Positions 1 to 14,400 of a stretch of 27,729 bases of DNA are shown in pieces. Made by a program: the position numbers and the translations under genes. A model generated the notes under the pieces. The model saw nothing but the letters and a program-made list of their open reading frames with translations. It had not been told where the DNA came from and searched no databases. Position 1 is the stretch's first letter, and each line of letters opens with the position of its first letter. Source of the stretch: a virus; IMG/VR virus record IMGVR_UViG_3300025120_000417, positions 1-27,729 of that record; one strand, given 5' to 3'.

Positions 1-746
1 CTTTGAACTGTATTTTGAGCTTCTAATCCTTGCATTACCCCTAACACAATACTCATAGTTAAAAGACCTTTTCTAGAGTAATCTTTAAATTTATCTATAA
101 CCCTAGTTGCAGTAGCACCTTCAGAAATGTTTGATAGTATATCATTTACTATTTCTTGTTCTTTATCATCTAATTCAATTTCTTTATCTTCATTTAATGA
201 ATCTGTTTTAAAAATTGATAAAAAATCATCTACATTTATTTGATATGGGATATAATCTTTAATTGTATCTAAATCTTTATCCCTAATAGCTTGTCTTAAA
301 TTAGTAGCAGAAAAATCACCTATTGTACCAGCATCAAATACTTCAACGTGGGGGTATTTTTCTTTATCTAATAATGATTTAAATCTTTCTTCTTCACCTT
401 TACCAAATACTGCTCTTATGTCATGAGTAGGGTTATCCTTAGCATAATCATAAACAGCTTTTACGGGGGTTGGAGTTGGGTGTATTTCAACTTTTTCTAG
501 TTCTGGGATGTTTGTCTTATATAAATCCCATACTTTTTTAGCTTCTTCAAAATCAATATCTTCTCTTTCTTTAGTTGACATAAAAATAATAACTTTATCT
601 GTGCTATCATCCATAGATTTTAAAGCTGTTTCAACATGTCCCTTATGAGGAGGTTTAAAAGCACCTGGGTAGATAGAAACTGTTTCAGTTATTTCCTCTA
701 ATAAGATTCTTTCTACTATTTGTTGGACTATTTTTTTTAGGTTCAT
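1..746 (-). CDS. NMNAT-like nucleotidyltransferase, 3' end outside window
   Basis: I translated 248 codons from an ATG at 746 with no stop before the left edge, so the C-terminus is missing. Residues 27-37 read PGAFKPPHKGH, the GxFxPxHxGH signature of the nucleotidylyltransferase superfamily (catalytic H34, G36, H37). Residues 146-151, SATNLR, match the second (S/T)xxxR nucleotide-binding motif. By family knowledge such enzymes transfer an adenylyl or cytidylyl group; NMN adenylyltransferase (NAD synthesis) is the likeliest activity, with pantetheine-phosphate or other substrates possible. The first 20 residues form an amphipathic leader (IVERILLEEI) ahead of the first strand. After about residue 175 there is an acidic linker and then a second segment with a hydrophobic stretch (GLLTMSIVLGVMQGL, residues 227-241), which is not part of a minimal NMNAT. 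The start overlaps the upstream kinase stop by 4 nt (ATGA), implying translational coupling. No Shine-Dalgarno sequence is visible. Confidence 0.82.
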   Translation of the reverse strand, partial: MNLKKIVQQIVERILLEEITETVSIYPGAFKPPHKGHVETALKSMDDSTDKVIIFMSTKEREDIDFEEAKKVWDLYKTNIPELEKVEIHPTPTPVKAVYDYAKDNPTHDIRAVFGKGEEERFKSLLDKEKYPHVEVFDAGTIGDFSATNLRQAIRDKDLDTIKDYIPYQINVDDFLSIFKTDSLNEDKEIELDDKEQEIVNDILSNISEGATATRVIDKFKDYSRKGLLTMSIVLGVMQGLEAQNTVQ

Positions 747-1543
747 GAGAAAAACTGTTTTACTTTAGTTTTAGCTTCGTCTTTTGATACTGAATTGGAT
801 TTAATATTTTCTACTTTATCAGAGTTAATAAAATCTTCAATTTGTTTGTTTAATTCTGCTTTTTGTTGATCAGATTTTTGTTGTTGTTTATCTGTCTTAG
901 GTTTAGTATCTGTTGGTTTATAAGGAGTAACATATTTGTCTAGTAGATTTTCTAATGATTTTTGGGGTTCACCTTTTTTTAACGCTTTATCATTTATTAC
1001 AGAAACAAAATTACTACCAAACTCGTTTTTATATAAGTCATAATTTTGAGTTATATTATTCCAAGTTCTCAATACAATAGCAGGTGATAAACTTCTATCC
1101 CCACCTTGTGAACGTTGAAATCTTGTTTCATTTCTATCTAATGCTTTTTCTAATGAGGCAAATACATACACCATTAAAATATCATATCCTAAATCTTCTA
1201 GTTCCTTTTTTAACCTTAATGTAGGTTTTGAATTAGCTGCTGTACCATCTAATATAAAATTTTTCTTTCCTAATATAATATCTTTCATATAAGGTCGAAA
1301 TTCTTTATTTGCAGCGGCCATAGCTGATGCTGCTTTGCTTCTTGCCTCAGCATCTGCGTTTTTTAAATCTAAAGATACTCCCATATCTTTTAAATTACGC
1401 ATATAATAATCATCAACATTTAATATTAAGGCATTATTGACATCTTCAATAAATGAAGATTTACCTGCACCTGGGGAGCCAGCAAGAATTAGGGCTTTAG
1501 GATTAACCGAGCGTTCAAGTAATATATCACGTAATTTATACAT
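743..1543 (-). CDS. Zeta-toxin-like P-loop kinase
   Basis: This 266-residue protein has a clear Walker A motif, GSPGAGKS, at residues 22-29 after a hydrophobic strand (ALILA). An acidic DDYY follows at 44-47 and a second strand ending FILDG at 96-100. An arginine-rich lid-like region, RNETRFQRSQGGDR, spans 137-150. This layout fits the zeta-toxin/AAA_33 group of small-molecule or nucleotide kinases; the substrate cannot be read from sequence. Residues 205-235 are a Lys/Gln/Asp-rich low-complexity linker, and a short charged tail ends in VKQFFS. The N-terminus, MYKLRDILLERS, is a short amphipathic leader with an LLE site just before the P-loop domain, resembling T4 capsid-targeting peptides. 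It is the first gene after a 52-nt gap with a promoter-like element and is coupled by a 4-nt overlap to the NMNAT-like gene. A toxin role is possible but no antitoxin-like partner is seen. Confidence 0.8.
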   Translation of the reverse strand: MYKLRDILLERSVNPKALILAGSPGAGKSSFIEDVNNALILNVDDYYMRNLKDMGVSLDLKNADAEARSKAASAMAAANKEFRPYMKDIILGKKNFILDGTAANSKPTLRLKKELEDLGYDILMVYVFASLEKALDRNETRFQRSQGGDRSLSPAIVLRTWNNITQNYDLYKNEFGSNFVSVINDKALKKGEPQKSLENLLDKYVTPYKPTDTKPKTDKQQQKSDQQKAELNKQIEDFINSDKVENIKSNSVSKDEAKTKVKQFFS

Positions 1544-4425: not shown

Positions 4426-4725
4426 TTATTGATCGTATTTAATAACAAAAGTTGTATCTATATCATTAGATATAGGAATAGGTTGACTAAACTTACCAAC
4501 CATTAACAATTCATTATTATCATTATATAAACCTATTGTTGTTGAGTATGGCATAAAATCTGAGCCAGTAGCAAAATCTCTTAAGGATCCAGAGCTATTA
4601 GTAGTAATAGTTGGGTTTTGGCTCATATTAAATTCAGTAGCACTAACAGTACATACAACCTCATTTTCATAGATTGTATAATTATTTTTGAATAATATTT
4701 TATTTGGTCCTACTTCTATTGCCAT
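4426..4725 (-). CDS. Small structural protein, paralogue of the 348-residue protein's C-terminus
   Basis: The 99-residue protein matches the last 80 residues of the 348-residue structural protein encoded at 9723-10769. Both share the order NP(T/S)...TTIGLYND-x-NELL-x-V-x-K-x-S-x-P and a final beta-rich segment. Similarity is also visible in DNA: 4508-4543 and 9805-9840 differ at 3 of 36 bases. It therefore looks like a stand-alone copy of a fibre or baseplate attachment domain. It lies 10 nt after the 575-residue adhesin gene and could act as a tip, cap or adaptor for that protein. There is no signal peptide or membrane segment. Confidence 0.7.
   Translation of the reverse strand: MAIEVGPNKILFKNNYTIYENEVVCTVSATEFNMSQNPTITTNSSGSLRDFATGSDFMPYSTTIGLYNDNNELLMVGKFSQPIPISNDIDTTFVIKYDQ
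4508..4543 (-). repeat. Dispersed paralogous repeat, copy 1
   Basis: This 36-nt segment matches 9805-9840 with 3 differences. It encodes the TTIGLYND-x-NELL core of the paralogous domain. The match reflects gene duplication or recombination rather than a mobile repeat. Confidence 0.6.
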
Positions 4726-4735
4726 AATTTATTTA

Positions 4736-6463
4736 TTAACATGGATCTGCTCTATCAATTATTTCACCTTTATTAAAGTTAACATAGTCTCCCTCTGTTG
4801 TCTTATACCAACGTCTTCCTAATCCTAAGGGAACATAAGCATAAGGGGTATCGACATGATAATAAACTACTCCTGAAGGGCCAAGTGAGTATGACTTTAA
4901 GTTGTTACTACATACCCTATTTAAAGTTCTTGGGTTAATTATATCTGGGGTTTGTAAAGGATAAGATGAATTTGGAAATCCTATACTACCAAATTGTACT
5001 GTAGTTAATTCTGTTCCACAAGTTTCATACCCTACAATACGACCTCCACTTAAAATAACATTACGTCCACCCCTTGCTGGTGTTCCACTATATAATGGGT
5101 ATCTTCCGGATAAACCTGATCCTACTAATCTGTTATCTTTATAAGAAAATGTAGTTCCTGTAGCTTTTTTTCTTCTACAAGCGGATTCTTGGTTAGGGAA
5201 TGATCCTTTAAGGGTAAATATATCAAGTGTAGGTAAAATACATCCTCCTCTGTTTTGTAAATATCCATCTTGGTTAACTATTAAATATACAGTTGAATCA
5301 GTAAGGATATAATTTTTAGTAAATGGAAATGTTGCCTTTGTATCATCTAAAGCATCAGCTCTAGTATCGTATAGGTATCCATTTCTTTTATAATATGTTT
5401 TTTCTCTAAAATTTACATTAGTAGCAGCACAGGCTTCATCTTGTGTAGCATAAGGTGTAGAACCAAATTGGAAAGCTACATAAGGTGTAGGATTTGGAGC
5501 GGGGCCAGGGCCTGGAGCTGGAGCAGGTAATACTACTGGAACCGGGGCTGGTGGTGTTTGGGTTAATAAAGTAAAAGTTGTTGTTGAAATTGAATCATCA
5601 GTGGGTATAACTAATTGTCTAATATCAAATGTTATTCCCTTATCAGGTGTAAAAATTGAACTATTGTCAGTATTATTTGTAGGGGAATCATATCCTCCTC
5701 CTGTAGTATAAACTTCTTTTTCTACTCCTATAGATGTTCTTTGAACAAAATTACCATAAGTACTTCTAGACCCTCCTTTTATAGTAACTTTTAAATCGTC
5801 AGATCGACCTGTAGCAGTCCATGCACTAGCATCTGGGGCTGTACTATAGTCATAGGTTATAGAATTTCCAGATAATATTTTATAATTTGCGTTACCTCTG
5901 GTGCTACGGATTAAAACTTCCATGGGTGATGAAAGGTTATTTTTAAACACAATATTTACACTACCAGATGATATACGTGGTGGTAATAAATCATATGTAA
6001 AAGATAAGGGATCAGAATTAGGAGAGGGATCTGGGCCACTACAAGAGGTAAAGGCTTTAAAATATATTGTACCACTTGTAAAAGAGGTTGAAACTGGAAT
6101 TATAGAGTCTATTGAAGAGGAAAATATTTCTGATGTGCCAAAGTTTGGATCATTAGAAACAGAAGCTGTAATATTATTAGCTGGGTTAAAACCAGATTGT
6201 GTTACATAATTTATACCAAATCTTCCTCTACGAGAACCTGTTGTTAAACTAGTTAAAAGTGGAACTAAACAATCTTCAAACCCCGGTTCACAATCAATAG
6301 GATTAAATGCTCTATAAAAATAATCTTCATTATATAATGAGGCACTAAAAGGGGCTACAGTTAAATCCTGATCAAAAGATGAAGTTACTACACTACCTGA
6401 ATCTGGTCCAGAAGTGAAGTATTGCCTTACTGTAGGTGATATTTGGTAGCCTGTATTAGCCAT
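4736..6463 (-). CDS. Putative adhesin or tail-fibre tip with Pro-rich hinge and Cys-containing repeats
   Basis: The 575-residue protein has three parts. Residues 1-300 are Ser/Thr/Gly-rich and beta-like, with a fibronectin-like stretch around 95-160. Residues 303-328 are a Pro/Ala/Gly hinge (such as PAPAPGPGPAPNPTP). Residues 331-575 hold three diverged repeats of roughly 70-85 residues. Each has a FGS- or KGS-type start, an internal cysteine and a Tyr/Gly-rich middle, and ends in a G-x(2-7)-C pattern (GGC 406-408, ETC 480-482, DPC 573-575). By resemblance these are like short Cys-containing repeats I associate with Bacteroidetes surface and phage tail proteins; no database check was made. 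It probably contributes to receptor binding. Its start overlaps the upstream fibre gene by 8 nt. Confidence 0.65.
   Translation of the reverse strand: MANTGYQISPTVRQYFTSGPDSGSVVTSSFDQDLTVAPFSASLYNEDYFYRAFNPIDCEPGFEDCLVPLLTSLTTGSRRGRFGINYVTQSGFNPANNITASVSNDPNFGTSEIFSSSIDSIIPVSTSFTSGTIYFKAFTSCSGPDPSPNSDPLSFTYDLLPPRISSGSVNIVFKNNLSSPMEVLIRSTRGNANYKILSGNSITYDYSTAPDASAWTATGRSDDLKVTIKGGSRSTYGNFVQRTSIGVEKEVYTTGGGYDSPTNNTDNSSIFTPDKGITFDIRQLVIPTDDSISTTTFTLLTQTPPAPVPVVLPAPAPGPGPAPNPTPYVAFQFGSTPYATQDEACAATNVNFREKTYYKRNGYLYDTRADALDDTKATFPFTKNYILTDSTVYLIVNQDGYLQNRGGCILPTLDIFTLKGSFPNQESACRRKKATGTTFSYKDNRLVGSGLSGRYPLYSGTPARGGRNVILSGGRIVGYETCGTELTTVQFGSIGFPNSSYPLQTPDIINPRTLNRVCSNNLKSYSLGPSGVVYYHVDTPYAYVPLGLGRRWYKTTEGDYVNFNKGEIIDRADPC
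4739..5473 (-). repeat. Three tandem Cys-containing protein repeats (adhesin C-terminus)
   Basis: This segment encodes residues 331-575 of the 575-residue adhesin, about three units (331-408, 415-482, 489-575). The repeats are visible in protein but too diverged to be obvious in DNA. The Pro-rich hinge just upstream is encoded at 5480-5557. Confidence 0.5.
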
Positions 6464-9400
6464 AAATTACGTTATCTATAAAATATTTTCCAATTGATAT
6501 TGCTCTATTATCCAATTGGGTTTGTGATCCTGATGTTGCTATAGGAGACATAAATAAATAATAAACCCTATTAACATCTCTTATTAAATTTAATTTTCTT
6601 GAGAAAATTTCTCCACCTCCTAACCCCGTAGGTAAAGGCATGTCTGCAAATTCATCTTCATTTATTATCATAACATACATAAGGTCATGTTCCATTCGTT
6701 GAGATCCGGCATATATATTATAATCTCTATAACTTCCCGTTGTATTTGCTCTTATTCCTATTGGGTCATTTGAATATTGTTCAGCATCTGTATAAGAAAA
6801 AACTTCTAAATAATTGATATTATCTACATCTGCAGTCATTAACCATACTTTATCTGTTCTTTGAGTAAAATATTGTGAATTTTCTCCTCCAAAATAACTT
6901 GAAGAAACTGAACCACTGAAAATAGACCCACTAGTATATTCTAGGTTTGAACCAGATATAGTATTAATTATATTTCCAAAACTATAATTTTCTCTAAATA
7001 AAAGTGAATTAGGCCCTATAAAGCTACCTGTATTACCATATACTGTATCTATAAATTCATTACTACGGGCTATAAAGTTACTACCTGAACCATCTACTAT
7101 ATTTGTTCCTCCACTTCCTGTTAGTGATAAATTTGTAGCACTACCTGTAAATAAATCTCTAATTTCATCTAAACCAACTTGCTTATCAAATTTAAAATTA
7201 ATATTGGTAGTTAGATCTTCTGTATTAATTTTTGATGCTGTTAAATGTAAAGAATTTATAGAATGGCTAGTACCAAATGCTAAAGAAACATCTACATTTT
7301 GTTCAAAGAAATCCATCCTACCATTACCTGTAATAATTGCAGAGTTTGTTACTTCACTTCCTGTTAAATTAGCAGGAACACCAACTACATCACTAGAACC
7401 ACTAAATTCTCTTCTTAATGTAAAATTATGATTTGAGCCTGTAAATATGTCTATATATAAAGTATCATTTACATTCCAAGCATAACTTCCTGTTGCACTG
7501 CCAGAAGTATCTAATTGTACAGGGGTTTCACTTCCAGAATGTATTCTAACTGATACATGTTCAGAGCCTGTTTTTTGATAAAAATTAAGGTTACGTTGTG
7601 CTACGCTACCTGTTCCATCTTCACAAAAGGATTCGCTTACTTCCCATGTTCTACCATAAATTTCTAATGTTTGTATTGGGGATGTACATCCTAAATCATC
7701 TATTATTTCTATACTACAAGAACCGGAATTTAAACCTTCACCTGTAAGAGCAATTTCAAAATCTGAAACATTACTACTAGAATATTGTGATAAATTGGTA
7801 GTTATTTTAGTATTATAATTACTTACACCTCCTGTTAAATTTGTAAAAACAAGAAAGGGATAGTCTACACTTTGAGTATAATCTAGAGAAGCTGTATAAG
7901 ATATTGGGGTTGAAGAAGTAACTTCATAATTAAATGTGTAACTACATCCATCAGCATCAAACATGTTTAATATATAGGATCCACTAGCTGCGTTAATAAC
8001 ATTTTGAGATGAAGTTGAAAACCCACTAGGTCCGGCCCAACTCCAAGTTAAAGGTTCAGTACCCCCTGTTAAGAAATATTCTGAGGCACTATCTTCTGAA
8101 TCTAATTCATCTAATATAATTTTACCACTATTAGTTGCAAAACAATCTACGTGTGTAATTGTATAACTTGCTGTTACTGGTATTGTTTTAGTTACTTCTA
8201 TTAAAGAACTACTAGTACATAAATTAGAATCTTTAAAATATACGGTATATGAACCTACATTTAAATTTGTAAATTCATTTGGTAATGCAAGAGAATTTGA
8301 AAATGATGCTGATAATGATGCTGATATAGTTCCAGTTGCTCCACTACCACTTATTATAATACTACCATCATTTGTTCCACAGTTTGAAACATCGTTTTCC
8401 CAAACTTTTCCATCTATAGGTATAAAGGAAGTATTTAATGATTGAGTTACAACTTTACCATCATTATCTTTAATACTTAAAACTAATGAACGAGTTGGTG
8501 TTAAAGATGCACTTAATATAGGTTGAAATAAATCGTTTGTTGGGGTATAATTCGTTCCATCTATAGACCAACTATAAGGAGGTTGACCTTTATCAATTGA
8601 AAAAGTTACGGAAGAAGATAGATTTCCTTCAAAACAAGATTGAGTTATAGATTCAATTGAAGATGATAAAGGTTCTGATGTAATATTTAAAAATATTGAA
8701 GCGGTATTACTAGTTAGTCCTAAAGTATTATCTACAGTATACTGTAAACGATATTCACCAGTTGTAACACTGTTTATGTTTGGAGTAATAATTATTTCTC
8801 CACTTCCACTTGTACTAAAATCTGGGAATGAATATCCTTCTGGTAAAGAAGTTAGAACTGATCCGGTATTTAAACTAACACAGTCATCAAAATCCCCTTG
8901 TAGTGGGGTTAATTTTTTATTTTCTTGGGTGTTTAAAATTGTAATATAATCATTTCGAGCTACAGGAGTACCTTCTATAAAACAAAGATAATCTGAGTTT
9001 GTAATTACTGCTATACCATGATTATAAAATATATTTCCTACGGGTATCGCTAAATTTTCACCTGAATAATATCCAGGAGAGGCTGCGTAAAAAGGTTGTC
9101 CATATTTAGCAATTACTTTTATATAATCATATATGTTTCCTTGTCCATCATCTGCCATGAAAAAATTAGACCCAGATATAACAAAAGAATTAGGTTGAAC
9201 TCCTTCACCATATTTGTCTTTTGGAATTGAAACTACTCTAATTTTGGCTGCATTTTCTATAAAATAAATTGCACTACCAAATAAAGCGGCATCATTATCA
9301 AAGTCATATTCTACACTTTTAAAGTAAGGGAAATTTCTAAAATTCGGGAAGCTCCCCGAAGCCATTGTGTTTTGAAGATAATTATCAAATGAAGATGTAT

Positions 9401-9719
9401 GCCAAAATTCATTTACATTTTCAGGATATATTAAACCATCTCTTTCAGGATCTTGATCAATTGAAGAAGCAGTTATATAATTTTGATAATATAGATGACG
9501 AATTGATTCATAAATCAAACGTCTATAATTTCCATCAGTAGTTATATTATCGTTTACAGGATCAAAAGGTTGATCTGTATTAATAGGAATGTATTCTCCT
9601 ATATAAGTTTGGATATTATTTTCTGCATACGAAGATGAATCATACTCATACTGTTTATTCGCAGTATAAGGTACTGATTTTATTTCAGCAGGATTTAGTT
9701 TTTTGTATGCAAAACCCAT
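6456..9719 (-). CDS. Large tail-fibre protein with SprB-like repeats
   Basis: The 1087-residue protein begins with about 270 residues that look like a virion-attachment region (MGFAYKKLNPAEIKSVPY; later VGNIFYNHGIAVIT near 227-240). An Ig-like segment follows (about 300-350). Four SprB-like units then lie between about 355 and 690. The clearest (520-602) has VDCFATNSGKI, GGTEPLTWSW, ASGSYILNMFDADGC, which is the C..G.I / GG..P..WS / G.Y...V.D..GC pattern of the SprB repeat family. Residues 700-1087 are Ser/Gly/Asn-rich and beta-like, with no recognised domain. SprB repeats are known from gliding adhesins of flavobacteria, so this fibre may bind the host surface or carry host-derived modules. 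It starts 3 nt after the 348-residue protein gene and is followed by the adhesin gene. Confidence 0.75.
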   Translation of the reverse strand: MGFAYKKLNPAEIKSVPYTANKQYEYDSSSYAENNIQTYIGEYIPINTDQPFDPVNDNITTDGNYRRLIYESIRHLYYQNYITASSIDQDPERDGLIYPENVNEFWHTSSFDNYLQNTMASGSFPNFRNFPYFKSVEYDFDNDAALFGSAIYFIENAAKIRVVSIPKDKYGEGVQPNSFVISGSNFFMADDGQGNIYDYIKVIAKYGQPFYAASPGYYSGENLAIPVGNIFYNHGIAVITNSDYLCFIEGTPVARNDYITILNTQENKKLTPLQGDFDDCVSLNTGSVLTSLPEGYSFPDFSTSGSGEIIITPNINSVTTGEYRLQYTVDNTLGLTSNTASIFLNITSEPLSSSIESITQSCFEGNLSSSVTFSIDKGQPPYSWSIDGTNYTPTNDLFQPILSASLTPTRSLVLSIKDNDGKVVTQSLNTSFIPIDGKVWENDVSNCGTNDGSIIISGSGATGTISASLSASFSNSLALPNEFTNLNVGSYTVYFKDSNLCTSSSLIEVTKTIPVTASYTITHVDCFATNSGKIILDELDSEDSASEYFLTGGTEPLTWSWAGPSGFSTSSQNVINAASGSYILNMFDADGCSYTFNYEVTSSTPISYTASLDYTQSVDYPFLVFTNLTGGVSNYNTKITTNLSQYSSSNVSDFEIALTGEGLNSGSCSIEIIDDLGCTSPIQTLEIYGRTWEVSESFCEDGTGSVAQRNLNFYQKTGSEHVSVRIHSGSETPVQLDTSGSATGSYAWNVNDTLYIDIFTGSNHNFTLRREFSGSSDVVGVPANLTGSEVTNSAIITGNGRMDFFEQNVDVSLAFGTSHSINSLHLTASKINTEDLTTNINFKFDKQVGLDEIRDLFTGSATNLSLTGSGGTNIVDGSGSNFIARSNEFIDTVYGNTGSFIGPNSLLFRENYSFGNIINTISGSNLEYTSGSIFSGSVSSSYFGGENSQYFTQRTDKVWLMTADVDNINYLEVFSYTDAEQYSNDPIGIRANTTGSYRDYNIYAGSQRMEHDLMYVMIINEDEFADMPLPTGLGGGEIFSRKLNLIRDVNRVYYLFMSPIATSGSQTQLDNRAISIGKYFIDNVIYG
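7650..8657 (-). repeat. SprB-like repeat block in the tail fibre
   Basis: This encodes residues 355-690 of the fibre, about four units of 75-90 residues. Paired cysteines fall near unit starts and ends (C362, C447, C501, C526, C592, C668, C678). The third unit, at 7914-8156, is a near-textbook match; the others are diverged. Confidence 0.65.
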
Positions 9720-9722
9720 TCA

Positions 9723-10769
9723 TTAAAAATCTAATTTTACTCTTACTAGAGCTTCTTTAGTGAAATCTTTTACTAATGGTTTTGATAATTTAGCTACTGA
9801 TAATAATTCATTACCATCATTATATAAACCTATAGTTGTTATAAAAGTTTGTGGATTATTAATTAAACTTGAATATACAAATTCTCCACTACCACTAATC
9901 ATAGAAGGGTTAGTTGAATAATTAAAATCAGTATTTCTTACCCTAACAAAAATATAATCAGAAGTAACTGTTTCTTCTGAATTAAGTGAAAAAGTTTGTG
10001 CTAATTTAATTGATTCAAATAATTGGCTGTGGTTAGCTACAAGTGCTTCATCTGTTAAGTCATTATTAATGGCTAATCCTAATCCTCCTTCAGACCCAGA
10101 TAAAGTTAAAGCTCTAGGATTTAATACAATTAAACCAACGTCTGGTAGATATTTTCCATAAGATCCAGAAGGTGTATATCCTGCAGTTGTAGTAGATGCT
10201 GAAATAGGTACAGCTGATGTAGCTGAACCATTAGATCCACTTACAATATCAAATACACGACCTGCGTCCGTATAAGTTAATGTAGTTACATCTTTAGAAT
10301 TATCTGTTAATTGTAAGCGTGTTACTTCTGTTCCATCTGAACCAGATAAAACAAGATTAAAGGTACCAGGGAATAGTTTTTCTTTATATCTTGCTCTATT
10401 AACATTTAATACATAAATGTCTCTTGAATTTGTATTTCCAGTTCCAAAACTGAAATTTGTATTTTCATCTCCATTTATTAAAGTTCTAAACTGACCATAG
10501 GTTACTTTAGATGGAGAACTTCCTGTTACTAGATTATTATAAGGAGCAGACCCTGAACCTTCTGTTTCTCCATATGCAATTGCAAATTGTACTTCAGCAT
10601 CACTACGGAGTGAACCTGTTTGAAAAACATCTAAATATGTGTTAAATGAAGATGTGGCTGAAGATGTAAAGAATTGGTTTAAGGTAGGTGTTTGACCTGT
10701 CCATAGAGTAGAAGTAATCGAATCTGCACTTACTACAAAATCACTAGCGTTTAAACTTACAAAGCTCAT
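9723..10769 (-). CDS. Structural protein of the fibre/baseplate module
   Basis: The 348-residue protein is Ser/Gly/Thr-rich and mostly beta-like, with no membrane segment or enzyme motif. Its C-terminal 80 residues (269-348) form a distinct domain with RNTDFNYSTNPSM, TFITTIGLYNDGNELLSVAKLSKPL and a closing VRVKLDF strand. This domain recurs as the separate 99-residue protein at 4426-4725. I recognise this type of protein as common in T4-like phages from aquatic metagenomes but know no assigned function. Its place between the 219-residue protein and the large fibre suggests a fibre-base or wedge-associated role. It is 1 nt from the upstream gene's stop and 3 nt from the downstream start. Confidence 0.7.
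   Translation of the reverse strand: MSFVSLNASDFVVSADSITSTLWTGQTPTLNQFFTSSATSSFNTYLDVFQTGSLRSDAEVQFAIAYGETEGSGSAPYNNLVTGSSPSKVTYGQFRTLINGDENTNFSFGTGNTNSRDIYVLNVNRARYKEKLFPGTFNLVLSGSDGTEVTRLQLTDNSKDVTTLTYTDAGRVFDIVSGSNGSATSAVPISASTTTAGYTPSGSYGKYLPDVGLIVLNPRALTLSGSEGGLGLAINNDLTDEALVANHSQLFESIKLAQTFSLNSEETVTSDYIFVRVRNTDFNYSTNPSMISGSGEFVYSSLINNPQTFITTIGLYNDGNELLSVAKLSKPLVKDFTKEALVRVKLDF
9805..9840 (-). repeat. Dispersed paralogous repeat, copy 2
   Basis: Partner of 4508-4543 (33 of 36 bases identical). It encodes the TTIGLYND-x-NELL core within the C-terminal domain of the 348-residue protein. Confidence 0.6.
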
Positions 10770-10770
10770 A

Positions 10771-11430
10771 TTATGATGTTATTTTTGTTATGTTAAGTGG
10801 GATTGTTAATCTTGCTCCTGAATCTCTACCTGTTACTGTTAAAATAGTATTTAAAGTATTTGATGTTCCAAATAATGTATTAACTGTGGTTGCAGTTAAA
10901 TTAATTGTAGTACCAATTACTGTTCTAGATACATTTGTACCTACAGTAGTTGTTGCGTTTAGATTAGCAGCTGTAGCTGTATTTACACCTACTCCTTCAA
11001 AATTAGATAAAGTTCTTGAATCTCCGATTGTGGCTGTGTATCCACTTGCTTCGAATGTTGAATCTGTACCTAAATAATTTAATGATTGTGGTGTAATAGA
11101 TAATGAAGCACCTTGTTTTAGAGTAATAGTTGTATATCCTAACTCTAATACAGGTAGTTTAGCTGTTCCTCTAGGTAGAGTTAACAACTTATATTTCATT
11201 GTTTGTGTTTCATCAGGGAATGCTTCAAGAATAGGCATATTTTCTATTGCCTCTCCATAAAAAGCAGAACCAGATGGGTGGTTTGGATTATACAAGGTAT
11301 AATCAATTTCGTCATCCGCTAAAGAGAATTGTGTAATTCTAAATGAGCCATCATTTCGTGCTAACAGTTCTCGCCCTTTTTTAGTAAGGATGGCATCAAC
11401 AGTAACTGTATTATTATTTAAATATCCCAT
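10771..11430 (-). CDS. Conserved phage structural protein with Thr-rich beta C-terminus
   Basis: The 219-residue protein has a conserved-looking N-terminal half (VTVDAILTKKGRELLAR at 9-25, then DGSFRITQFSLADDEIDY) followed by a Thr/Asn-rich half of alternating beta residues. The end (ILTVTGRDSGARLTIPLNI) resembles an Ig-like or BIg-like domain. The N-terminal pattern is familiar from structural proteins of T4-like aquatic phages, but the exact role is unknown. It is the first gene after the 41-nt gap that follows the giant wedge gene and has its own promoter-like element, so it probably opens the adhesion-module transcript. The start is fixed by the ATG at 11430 in the leader GAAAATAAACC, with no Shine-Dalgarno sequence. 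Confidence 0.68.
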   Translation of the reverse strand: MGYLNNNTVTVDAILTKKGRELLARNDGSFRITQFSLADDEIDYTLYNPNHPSGSAFYGEAIENMPILEAFPDETQTMKYKLLTLPRGTAKLPVLELGYTTITLKQGASLSITPQSLNYLGTDSTFEASGYTATIGDSRTLSNFEGVGVNTATAANLNATTTVGTNVSRTVIGTTINLTATTVNTLFGTSNTLNTILTVTGRDSGARLTIPLNITKITS

Positions 11431-11446
11431 GGTTTATTTTCGTTGT

Positions 11447-11457
11447 ATATAAATATA
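11447..11457 (-). promoter_or_regulatory. Putative late promoter element before the adhesion module
   Basis: The minus strand reads TATATTTATAT, ending 16 nt before the ATG at 11430. The 41-nt gap holds nothing else recognisable. It is identical to the elements at 1561-1571 and 26156-26166. Confidence 0.42.
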
Positions 11458-11471
11458 GTGTTTTTTAGATT

Positions 11472-14400
11472 TTATGATATTAAATTCTGTGATTTAAGTT
11501 CTTTTACAATATTACCTGCTTTATCTTGTAAAGATTTAGGTATATCGGCAGGTAGTACAATTCCTGAAGAAGTTCTACCTGGTTGTTTTGCAAAATCAAG
11601 TACAATATTTGTTTCATCTTGCACTTTTTTTAGTATAACAAACCTTTTTATTTGTTTAGCATCTTCAGGTAAAGTTGCTCCTGGAAAATCTTCACAGGCT
11701 CTAGCTGGGATGTCTTTGTCAAACTCAATTGCTAAACGGTTTGTATTTGTTACTTCGTCTCTTGGTATAACGTTTACACGTTTTACTTGACGTTCAAATT
11801 CTTTAGGAAATATTCCACTTCCTGTTCCTGGTTCGCCTGCACCTACATCTACAAACCTAAATAAATCTCCTTTTTGAATTGAAAAAGCTTCATCTATCAC
11901 ACCATATGAATCTGAACCACTAATAAAGACTGATGAGGTTTGGATTATGTTTTCATACCAATAAGACATTGAAACAGAGGCAGTTAATATATTAAATGAA
12001 CCTGTATTATTTCTTACAAAGAAAGCATCATTTTCAGCATTATCACCACCGTCTGTAATACTTGAAGTTAATGAAGTTACAGGGTCAGAAGGGAAATAAT
12101 AGGTAAATTTAGGTTCTGAATGGTTAGCTGCCTCTTGACCTATAGTAATTGAAGCACTTATAATTTGTGGAGTTGAAAAACTGGTTTCAAACCTACCACC
12201 CATAGCAGAAGGTGAATCATTTATTATAGCTGATATTTCATTTGTGTTTTTAGGTAAGATAACAGAATTAGTTACATGATACGTAGCTTTTAATAAAGCA
12301 AAATCACCTAAATCAGTTGATGAAGATAGTATAGGTTGTGAACCATTAAAGGGATTCCAAGTTATATCGTCAAATGAAGCTGATGTGTTTTTAGGAATGT
12401 TAATTTCAAGTTCAACTTGACCCTCAACATTAATTAATAGATCATTATCCCACCAAATTGTAGATTGGTTTATAGGGGCATTTCGAGTTAATTTTATAGA
12501 AGGATAACCTCCTACATTAACTACATTACTACCACTTGTTATTTTAACCGTACCTAAATTAAAGTTTCCTATTTGGATAAAATCTCCTCCTAGACTAGTA
12601 GGTACTTCTCTTAAATCTTCTTTTGTAATATTTGATACAGATCCAGAAGTAAAATTATATATTAAGCTAGAACTTCCCGTTGGGTTTTGTAAACAAGGCA
12701 AATATCTAAAGCCACCAGCATACACAGGTTTTAACCCATCAAGGTATTTTTGGTCTGAAAATAATTGGTTATCATCTAAGGATATATTGGCTTCTTTATT
12801 AGCATTAAATATATTTTGTACCTCAAATATTGTTTCATTTTTACGAGTTAATTCAGTAACATTTGATCTTCCATCAATTAAATATTTTATATAAACATTT
12901 GATCTATCTGGGAAGAATGATCCTGTTTCTACTACTTCTTGGAAGTAAGCAAATTTAAGTGAGTTTAGATCAATTGCAGCTGTTTGACCGTATGAACTAT
13001 CCCCTATAGTATAAACATTATATAATTGGGATATATTTTTACTACCTAAATAACGAGGATTAATATTACGTAATAAAGTATAGTTACTATCTTGAATGGG
13101 AGCATCTAAAAAGGGTGTATCGGCTTCTGTTATTTCTCCAAAGGATCTACTTGTAATAAACCCAATATTAACTGGTGTTATTATGTTAGAAGAATAATCT
13201 AAATCCATATATTGGGTAGATTTTCTAGCTTCTGAAATGTTATTAAGGGTTGGGTTTAATGGTATAGCAGAGTAAGATAGTGAAGAACTAAAATCAATTT
13301 TAGTATTAAAATAACTTAGTTCTGTTACTATACTTGTTGTAGGTTGAGAATAGACTGTTAATTCACTACCACTATATTCCCCCGTAAAAGGTTCTCTATT
13401 GTCTGTAAAGTTATAAACTACACCCGAAGCTGTAATTGTATTTGCAGAACTTGATGGGATTAAAACTTCACCTGTATAGGTTGTGTTTAAAGGTATTCCC
13501 ATTGGGGTTGAACCTGTTATACTAACTACTTCAAAAGACCCACTATGATCTACATATGTAAATGAAGGTTCAAAACGTTGTTGTTTAGTTCTTTCTAAAA
13601 TTGTAGGTTTAATTACTAAACCAGTATTAAGTTGTGTTTTAGCAGGAACAAAATCCTTTAGCATTTTAAATAAAGAACTATCAAAATAAGATAGTAATTT
13701 AACTGATTCTAAAACACTAGTTTTTTTATAATATTTTTTAAAGTAAAAATCTTTTAACTCCTCTAATTTAGGGTAAGTTAATGAACTTGAATTTGTTGGA
13801 TCACCTATATAATCATCAATATCAAACCAACCCATTTGGTTTTCTATATCTCTATCTACACTATCTTGTGGTGAAATAGCAATTTGAGCTACATCTAAAT
13901 CAGCAGTATAATCTATACGTGAACTACTTAAAGTGTTTTGTTGTACAGAAACGTAAGCTGAAAGTGTTGAACCTGAAATTATTTCATTATTTGTTATTCT
14001 AATTTTATTTTCATTTGGGGTAAAAGCACCTATATCAGGACCTTGAATTATATCTATTTTACTTTCCGATACAAAACTATTTGTTGTAAAATTAGTTATA
14101 ATACCATAATTTACAGTTGAAGACCCCGTACCTAGAAAAGATGCTGTAGGTGCAACTGACCCAGTAACCATAGGGTGTACTGAGGTTACTTTATTATCTC
14201 CATCTGAGCCCGAAATGAAATCATAATTACCTAGAGGTAAACGGTATATTAAATCATAATATGAAGAGGTAATATTATTACCAGCATATGAGGTTGGGTT
14301 TAGTACATGTTGGTCAAATGCTGATTGGGATATGTTTGTAATCCAATATCTAAATTCTTGATATTCACCGTCAAAAATAACTCCATCAGGTGCTATAACG

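Follow-up and report, generated by a model that had tools for sequence, protein, structure and literature searches.

The 1087-residue fibre protein encoded in a 27,729-base IMG/VR virus record (hereafter the window) contains four tandem Ig-like units whose homology to the SprB repeats of Bacteroidota is confirmed by profile comparison. The last of these units is a sharply bounded, single peak of amino-acid change in the window's clade. We consider it fairly probable that the fibre is a modular tail-associated protein of a contractile-tailed Bacteroidota phage, with an SprB-type stalk and a host-facing unit 4.

The window carries a tail and baseplate cluster on one strand, comprising baseplate-wedge homologues (PHROGs), proteins of 1790, 219, 348 and 1087 residues, a 575-aa ORF and a 99-aa ORF, after which come a small gene with PHROGs matches to 'NAD synthetase' and homing-endonuclease families and the genes for a primase and an exonuclease. 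The genes are collinear with those of Flavobacterium phage immuto (76% for the 219-aa protein, 46% for the wedge protein); a looser collinearity is seen with Mel-JY01, a Microcystis phage, and with an uncultured huge phage of 484 kb. After the primase and exonuclease, two ORFs (window 3-1543, minus strand) resemble by eye a nicotinamide-nucleotide adenylyltransferase and a P-loop kinase; at a comparable position immuto carries a gene annotated as NadR.

The fibre gene has the features of a tail fibre: it lies in the tail and baseplate cluster, its N-terminus is conserved and its distal parts are exchangeable, the shared N-terminus being paired with differing C-termini across relatives. The N-terminal domain is probably an attachment domain. 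It is partly matched by the N-terminal part of immuto's 357-aa protein and is also found in the wider family. The 99-aa ORF matches the same immuto protein further along (40.7% across residues 249-356, E 1.9e-21), an arrangement as if inserted modules had split an ancestral gene. Between the N-terminal domain and the repeats, Pfam gave sub-cut-off matches among family members to Bact_surface_Ig-like (0.025) and Big_9 (0.027). Two relatives (L035, 6474-10343; L058, 9715-14286) have the same N-terminal domain and long Ser/Thr-Pro repeats in place of the Ig-like units. Some fibre orthologues carry, at three different positions, a roughly 115-residue module that ends in YYYCxNHSxMGG and that the window copy lacks; it gave weak Pfam matches only and no sequence match in the PDB.

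Table 1. Features of the fibre gene and related elements. Positions are those of the window unless residues are given; the boundaries of the four units are our own choice.
Feature	Position	Strand	Basis
Tail-associated fibre protein, 1087 aa, whole ORF	6456..9719	minus	ORF in sequence; same gene order in orthologues
N-terminal domain, residues 1-250	8970..9719	minus	common to relatives of very different length
Probable Ig-like domain, residues 251-355	8655..8969	minus	weak sub-cut-off Pfam matches among family members
SprB-type unit 1, residues 356-435	8415..8654	minus	hhalign 91.6%, HMM 5.3 bits
SprB-type unit 2, residues 436-515	8175..8414	minus	HMM 30.7 bits, hhalign 97.7%, Hoc-like profile 22.5%
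SprB-type unit 3, clearest, residues 516-605	7905..8174	minus	HMM 24.3 bits, hhalign 99.2%, Pfam SprB E 0.036
SprB-type unit 4, hypervariable, residues 606-690	7650..7904	minus	HMM 4.1 bits, hhalign 95.0%, pN/pS
C-terminal region, residues 691-1087	6459..7649	minus	conserved in the window's clade; unmatched in L044 and L185
99-aa ORF	4426..4725	minus	matches C-terminal third of immuto 357-aa protein
YYYCxNHSxMGG module in fibre ORFs (residues)	L015 485-600 and 1210-1326; L016 1085-1201; L020 1067-1180; L014 1080-1195; L019 791-902		

Scanned directly against Pfam, NCBIfam and PHROGs, the fibre was assigned to no SprB family. The Pfam model PF13573 matches the window protein twice, both times in unit 3 and below threshold (E 0.036 and 8.8), and in a direct search the protein reached 9.7 bits against a gathering cut-off of 28 bits. 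Sub-threshold matches were found in 11 of 12 relatives (best E 1.1e-5, none above the cut-off). Two orthologues, L185 (55.5 bits) and L292 (32.1 bits), exceed the cut-off, and the passing L185 protein sits in the same gene slot within the same gene order. Since the Pfam model was indecisive in the window, we built a full-unit profile from bacterial sequences. The bait was an idealised SprB unit composed from family knowledge and used solely to fetch sequences; the resulting HMM covers 69 positions and derives from 1146 units at 80 bacterial loci, all titled Bacteroidota except L126 (Rickettsiales), L130 (Deltaproteobacteria) and L161 (Methylococcales). The fetched repeats sit in long multi-repeat proteins, and nothing shows a restriction of these repeats to gliding adhesins.

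With this profile the fibre scored 44 bits (E 9.4e-13 among 1018 proteins), a significant match to the family proposed by the first-pass annotation. The repeat region alone reached 63 bits, compared with 8.9 for the best of 1000 composition shuffles and 9.2 for the best reversed protein. By unit, scores were 30.7 and 24.3 bits for units 2 and 3 and only 5.3 and 4.1 bits for units 1 and 4. Profile-profile comparison with hhalign supported all four units, at 91.6, 97.7, 99.2 and 95.0% from unit 1 to unit 4, while 80-residue control segments off the array (residues 1-320 and 721-1040) stayed at or below 8.3% and segments overlapping it gave 46-96%. The earlier assignment of residues 355-690 (window 7650-8657, minus strand) to about four SprB-type units is borne out, as is the choice of unit 3 as closest to the SprB pattern: it has the top hhalign probability, and the motifs quoted for it are present in the sequence. 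About 12 extra residues separate the halves of this unit. Two conserved cysteines are visible in units 2 and 3; in L014, L015 and L016 they are missing from one side or from both.

Ig-like domains are also familiar from Hoc-like head decoration proteins and phage tails, which share the fold and a detectable profile relation with the fibre units. In enterobacterial phages, the best Hoc-like and tail Ig domains reach 27-40 bits with the SprB profile, which shows that they are related to SprB repeats; the Hoc and SprB profiles match each other at 98.4%, and the A3 profile retrieves Hoc and decoration proteins from the PDB. The units might accordingly be nothing more than phage Ig-like domains, of the Hoc or tail-Ig kind, with no particular kinship to SprB, but this appears improbable. 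In a comparison of equal depth (9 sequences each), which covered Hoc-like and tail Ig domains as the other families, the fibre obtained 29-39 bits with SprB profiles and 6.6 with the Hoc-like profile. The latter gave unit 3 93.2%, with a much weaker E-value, and units 1, 2 and 4 just 0.9-23%; moreover, orthologues pass the Pfam SprB cut-off. Compared at the level of profiles, Hoc-like domains account for the match much less well than SprB does, and the fibre gene sits in a baseplate cluster.

A first AlphaFold model of residues 250-700, made with 12 phage sequences, was too poor for use (pLDDT 48). Units 2-4 (residues 436-690) were then modelled as confident β-sandwiches with a pLDDT of 90.4; the alignment behind this confidence combines phage and bacterial units and consists mostly of bacterial repeats. 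Fragments of the Aureispira grappling hook protein A (GhpA) were the top Foldseek matches (2e-8), ahead of many Ig and fibronectin domains, and GhpA also came first by VIA-align (Z 10.2 across 229 residues). By sequence profile and fold, GhpA is the closest solved structure of tandem units, yet it is a bacterial protein of 5898 residues and not part of a phage. In the viral structure library the top match was A0A6J5LD72, an uncultured phage protein annotated 'SprB repeat'. A phmmer search of the fibre against PDB chains gave nothing up to E 1. As the β-sandwich fold is common, function is not deducible from it.

Used as a single query against viral contigs, the fibre retrieved no relative, but a scan with an alignment located 91 related sites in these contigs, among them about 30 orthologues with SprB-type units at matching positions. 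Scanning with the idealised unit yielded 88 viral loci. In about 20 of them, all outside the window and including near-duplicates, a baseplate-type gene (gp6-like or 1790-aa-like) is close to the SprB-bearing ORF. One 642-kb uncultured phage record (L251, LR756502.1) has a 1670-aa ORF at 6647-11656 with 14 SprB-profile matches and 848 bits.

This distribution bears on the earlier suggestion that the phage had captured host surface modules, considered here as a recent capture that would enable mimicry of, or docking to, the gliding adhesin machinery. The SprB repeat is widespread in Bacteroidota, and gliding proteins are important in flavophage adsorption, with SprB and RemA suggested as possible receptors (PMC13288928, PMC7345892). 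However, the array is common to about 30 orthologues down to 33-39% identity and is therefore old in this phage lineage, which contradicts a recent capture. Nothing ties the repeats to the gliding motor or points to shared host glycans, and of the type IX secretion signal families neither CHU_C nor Por_Secre_tail was found by Pfam in the window protein at E 10, whereas CHU_C was present in a bacterial control (L110). We regard recent capture with such a role as very improbable; a modular stalk is likelier than a gliding or glycan function for the repeats.

The phage probably infects a Bacteroidota, Flavobacteria-like host, as indicated by the collinearity with immuto together with the missing Shine-Dalgarno sites. 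Shine-Dalgarno-like motifs precede 1 of 23 starts in the window and 1.5% of starts in the orthologue loci; they are likewise scarce in two flavobacterial phages, but reach 41% in a SAR11 phage and 27% for Mel-JY01. A Prochlorococcus phage also has few (2 of 14 starts, near the value for its shuffled sequence), which keeps this clue from being decisive by itself. The repeats had been put forward as the best host clue; the host they pointed to is likely right, but they are a weak clue by themselves because the SprB profile also scores the enterobacterial phage Ig domains, and immuto collinearity and Shine-Dalgarno usage are stronger.

Among 12 close orthologues (21 pairs), unit 4 showed a pN/pS of 0.85 and a dN/dS of 0.76, and the other regions a dN/dS of 0.17-0.30, by counting methods that are near saturation and at which diversifying selection and relaxed constraint are inseparable. 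In 30-residue windows pN/pS rose to 0.96 in unit 4 and ranged from 0.09 to 0.63 clear of it. Relaxed constraint or alignment noise could also cause the high unit 4 pN/pS. In the closest pair, L258/L259, pS too is raised in unit 4 (0.63 vs 0.22-0.32), which points to exchange between alleles, and unit 4 has probably been exchanged in this pair. A diversity-generating retroelement was considered as a source of the variation and set aside: no RVT_1 match was found in six relatives, of which three are contigs of 161-173 kb, although the records may be incomplete, and the substitution spectrum of unit 4 closely resembles the one outside it.

These data could also be read as showing a mere spacer, in which the whole array including unit 4 only bridges a distance, unit 4 varies because little constrains it, and the C-terminal region or a different protein binds the host. 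In four sister clades it is the C-terminal region that varies and the array that is better conserved, the unit 4 pN/pS stays at or below about 1, and the raised pS in L258/L259 would fit as well. In the window's own clade, however, the C-terminal region is conserved (dN/dS 0.2-0.3), unit 4 is the sole peak of amino-acid change, and its framework positions (GG and the LEIYGR edge) persist. We judge the spacer explanation rather unlikely. In the modular fibre that we favour, the conserved N-terminal domain would attach the protein to the baseplate, followed by the Ig-like domain, the four SprB-type units and the C-terminal region; units 1-3 would most likely form the stalk that extends the fibre, and the fast-changing unit 4 would most likely carry the host-facing surface. 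The phage repeats presumably descend from the bacterial ones. A further step, that a single SprB-type unit has become a variable domain dedicated to recognition, its diversity arising from selection and allele exchange and not from a diversity-generating retroelement, and that its neighbours form a conserved stalk, is possible but tentative.

Compared with the SprB repeats (PF13573) of large Bacteroidota surface adhesins, the fibre units are alike in length (70-90 residues), tandem layout and predicted β-sandwich, and share the pattern C..G..dG..GGt.PYtYsW..GtYtv.VtDanGC. Unlike those adhesins, the fibre has only four divergent units, flanked by N-terminal and C-terminal parts of phage type, lacks a detected type IX secretion signal and falls below the Pfam cut-off. 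The published parallel is the BACON repeat, which occurs in tandem in crAss-like phages and other gut phages (PMC6949934). BACON repeats are likewise an Ig-like family typical of Bacteroidota surface proteins and found in tail-associated phage proteins, but they belong to another repeat family and another phage lineage, and in the fibre variation peaks in one unit. SprB repeats in uncultured phages are already known by automatic annotation (A0A6J5LD72 and A0A6J5LDA4, uncultured Caudovirales), and a search of the open literature, with most subscription journals outside its scope, found no paper on them in phage fibres; what is new here is the sharply bounded hypervariable unit 4.

The fibre thus adds, beside BACON, a second Bacteroidota adhesin-type repeat family to phage tail proteins. 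The phage lineage is large, one neighbouring gene having at least 596 matching places in IMG/VR, and the bounded unit 4 offers an 85-residue candidate stretch for host recognition.
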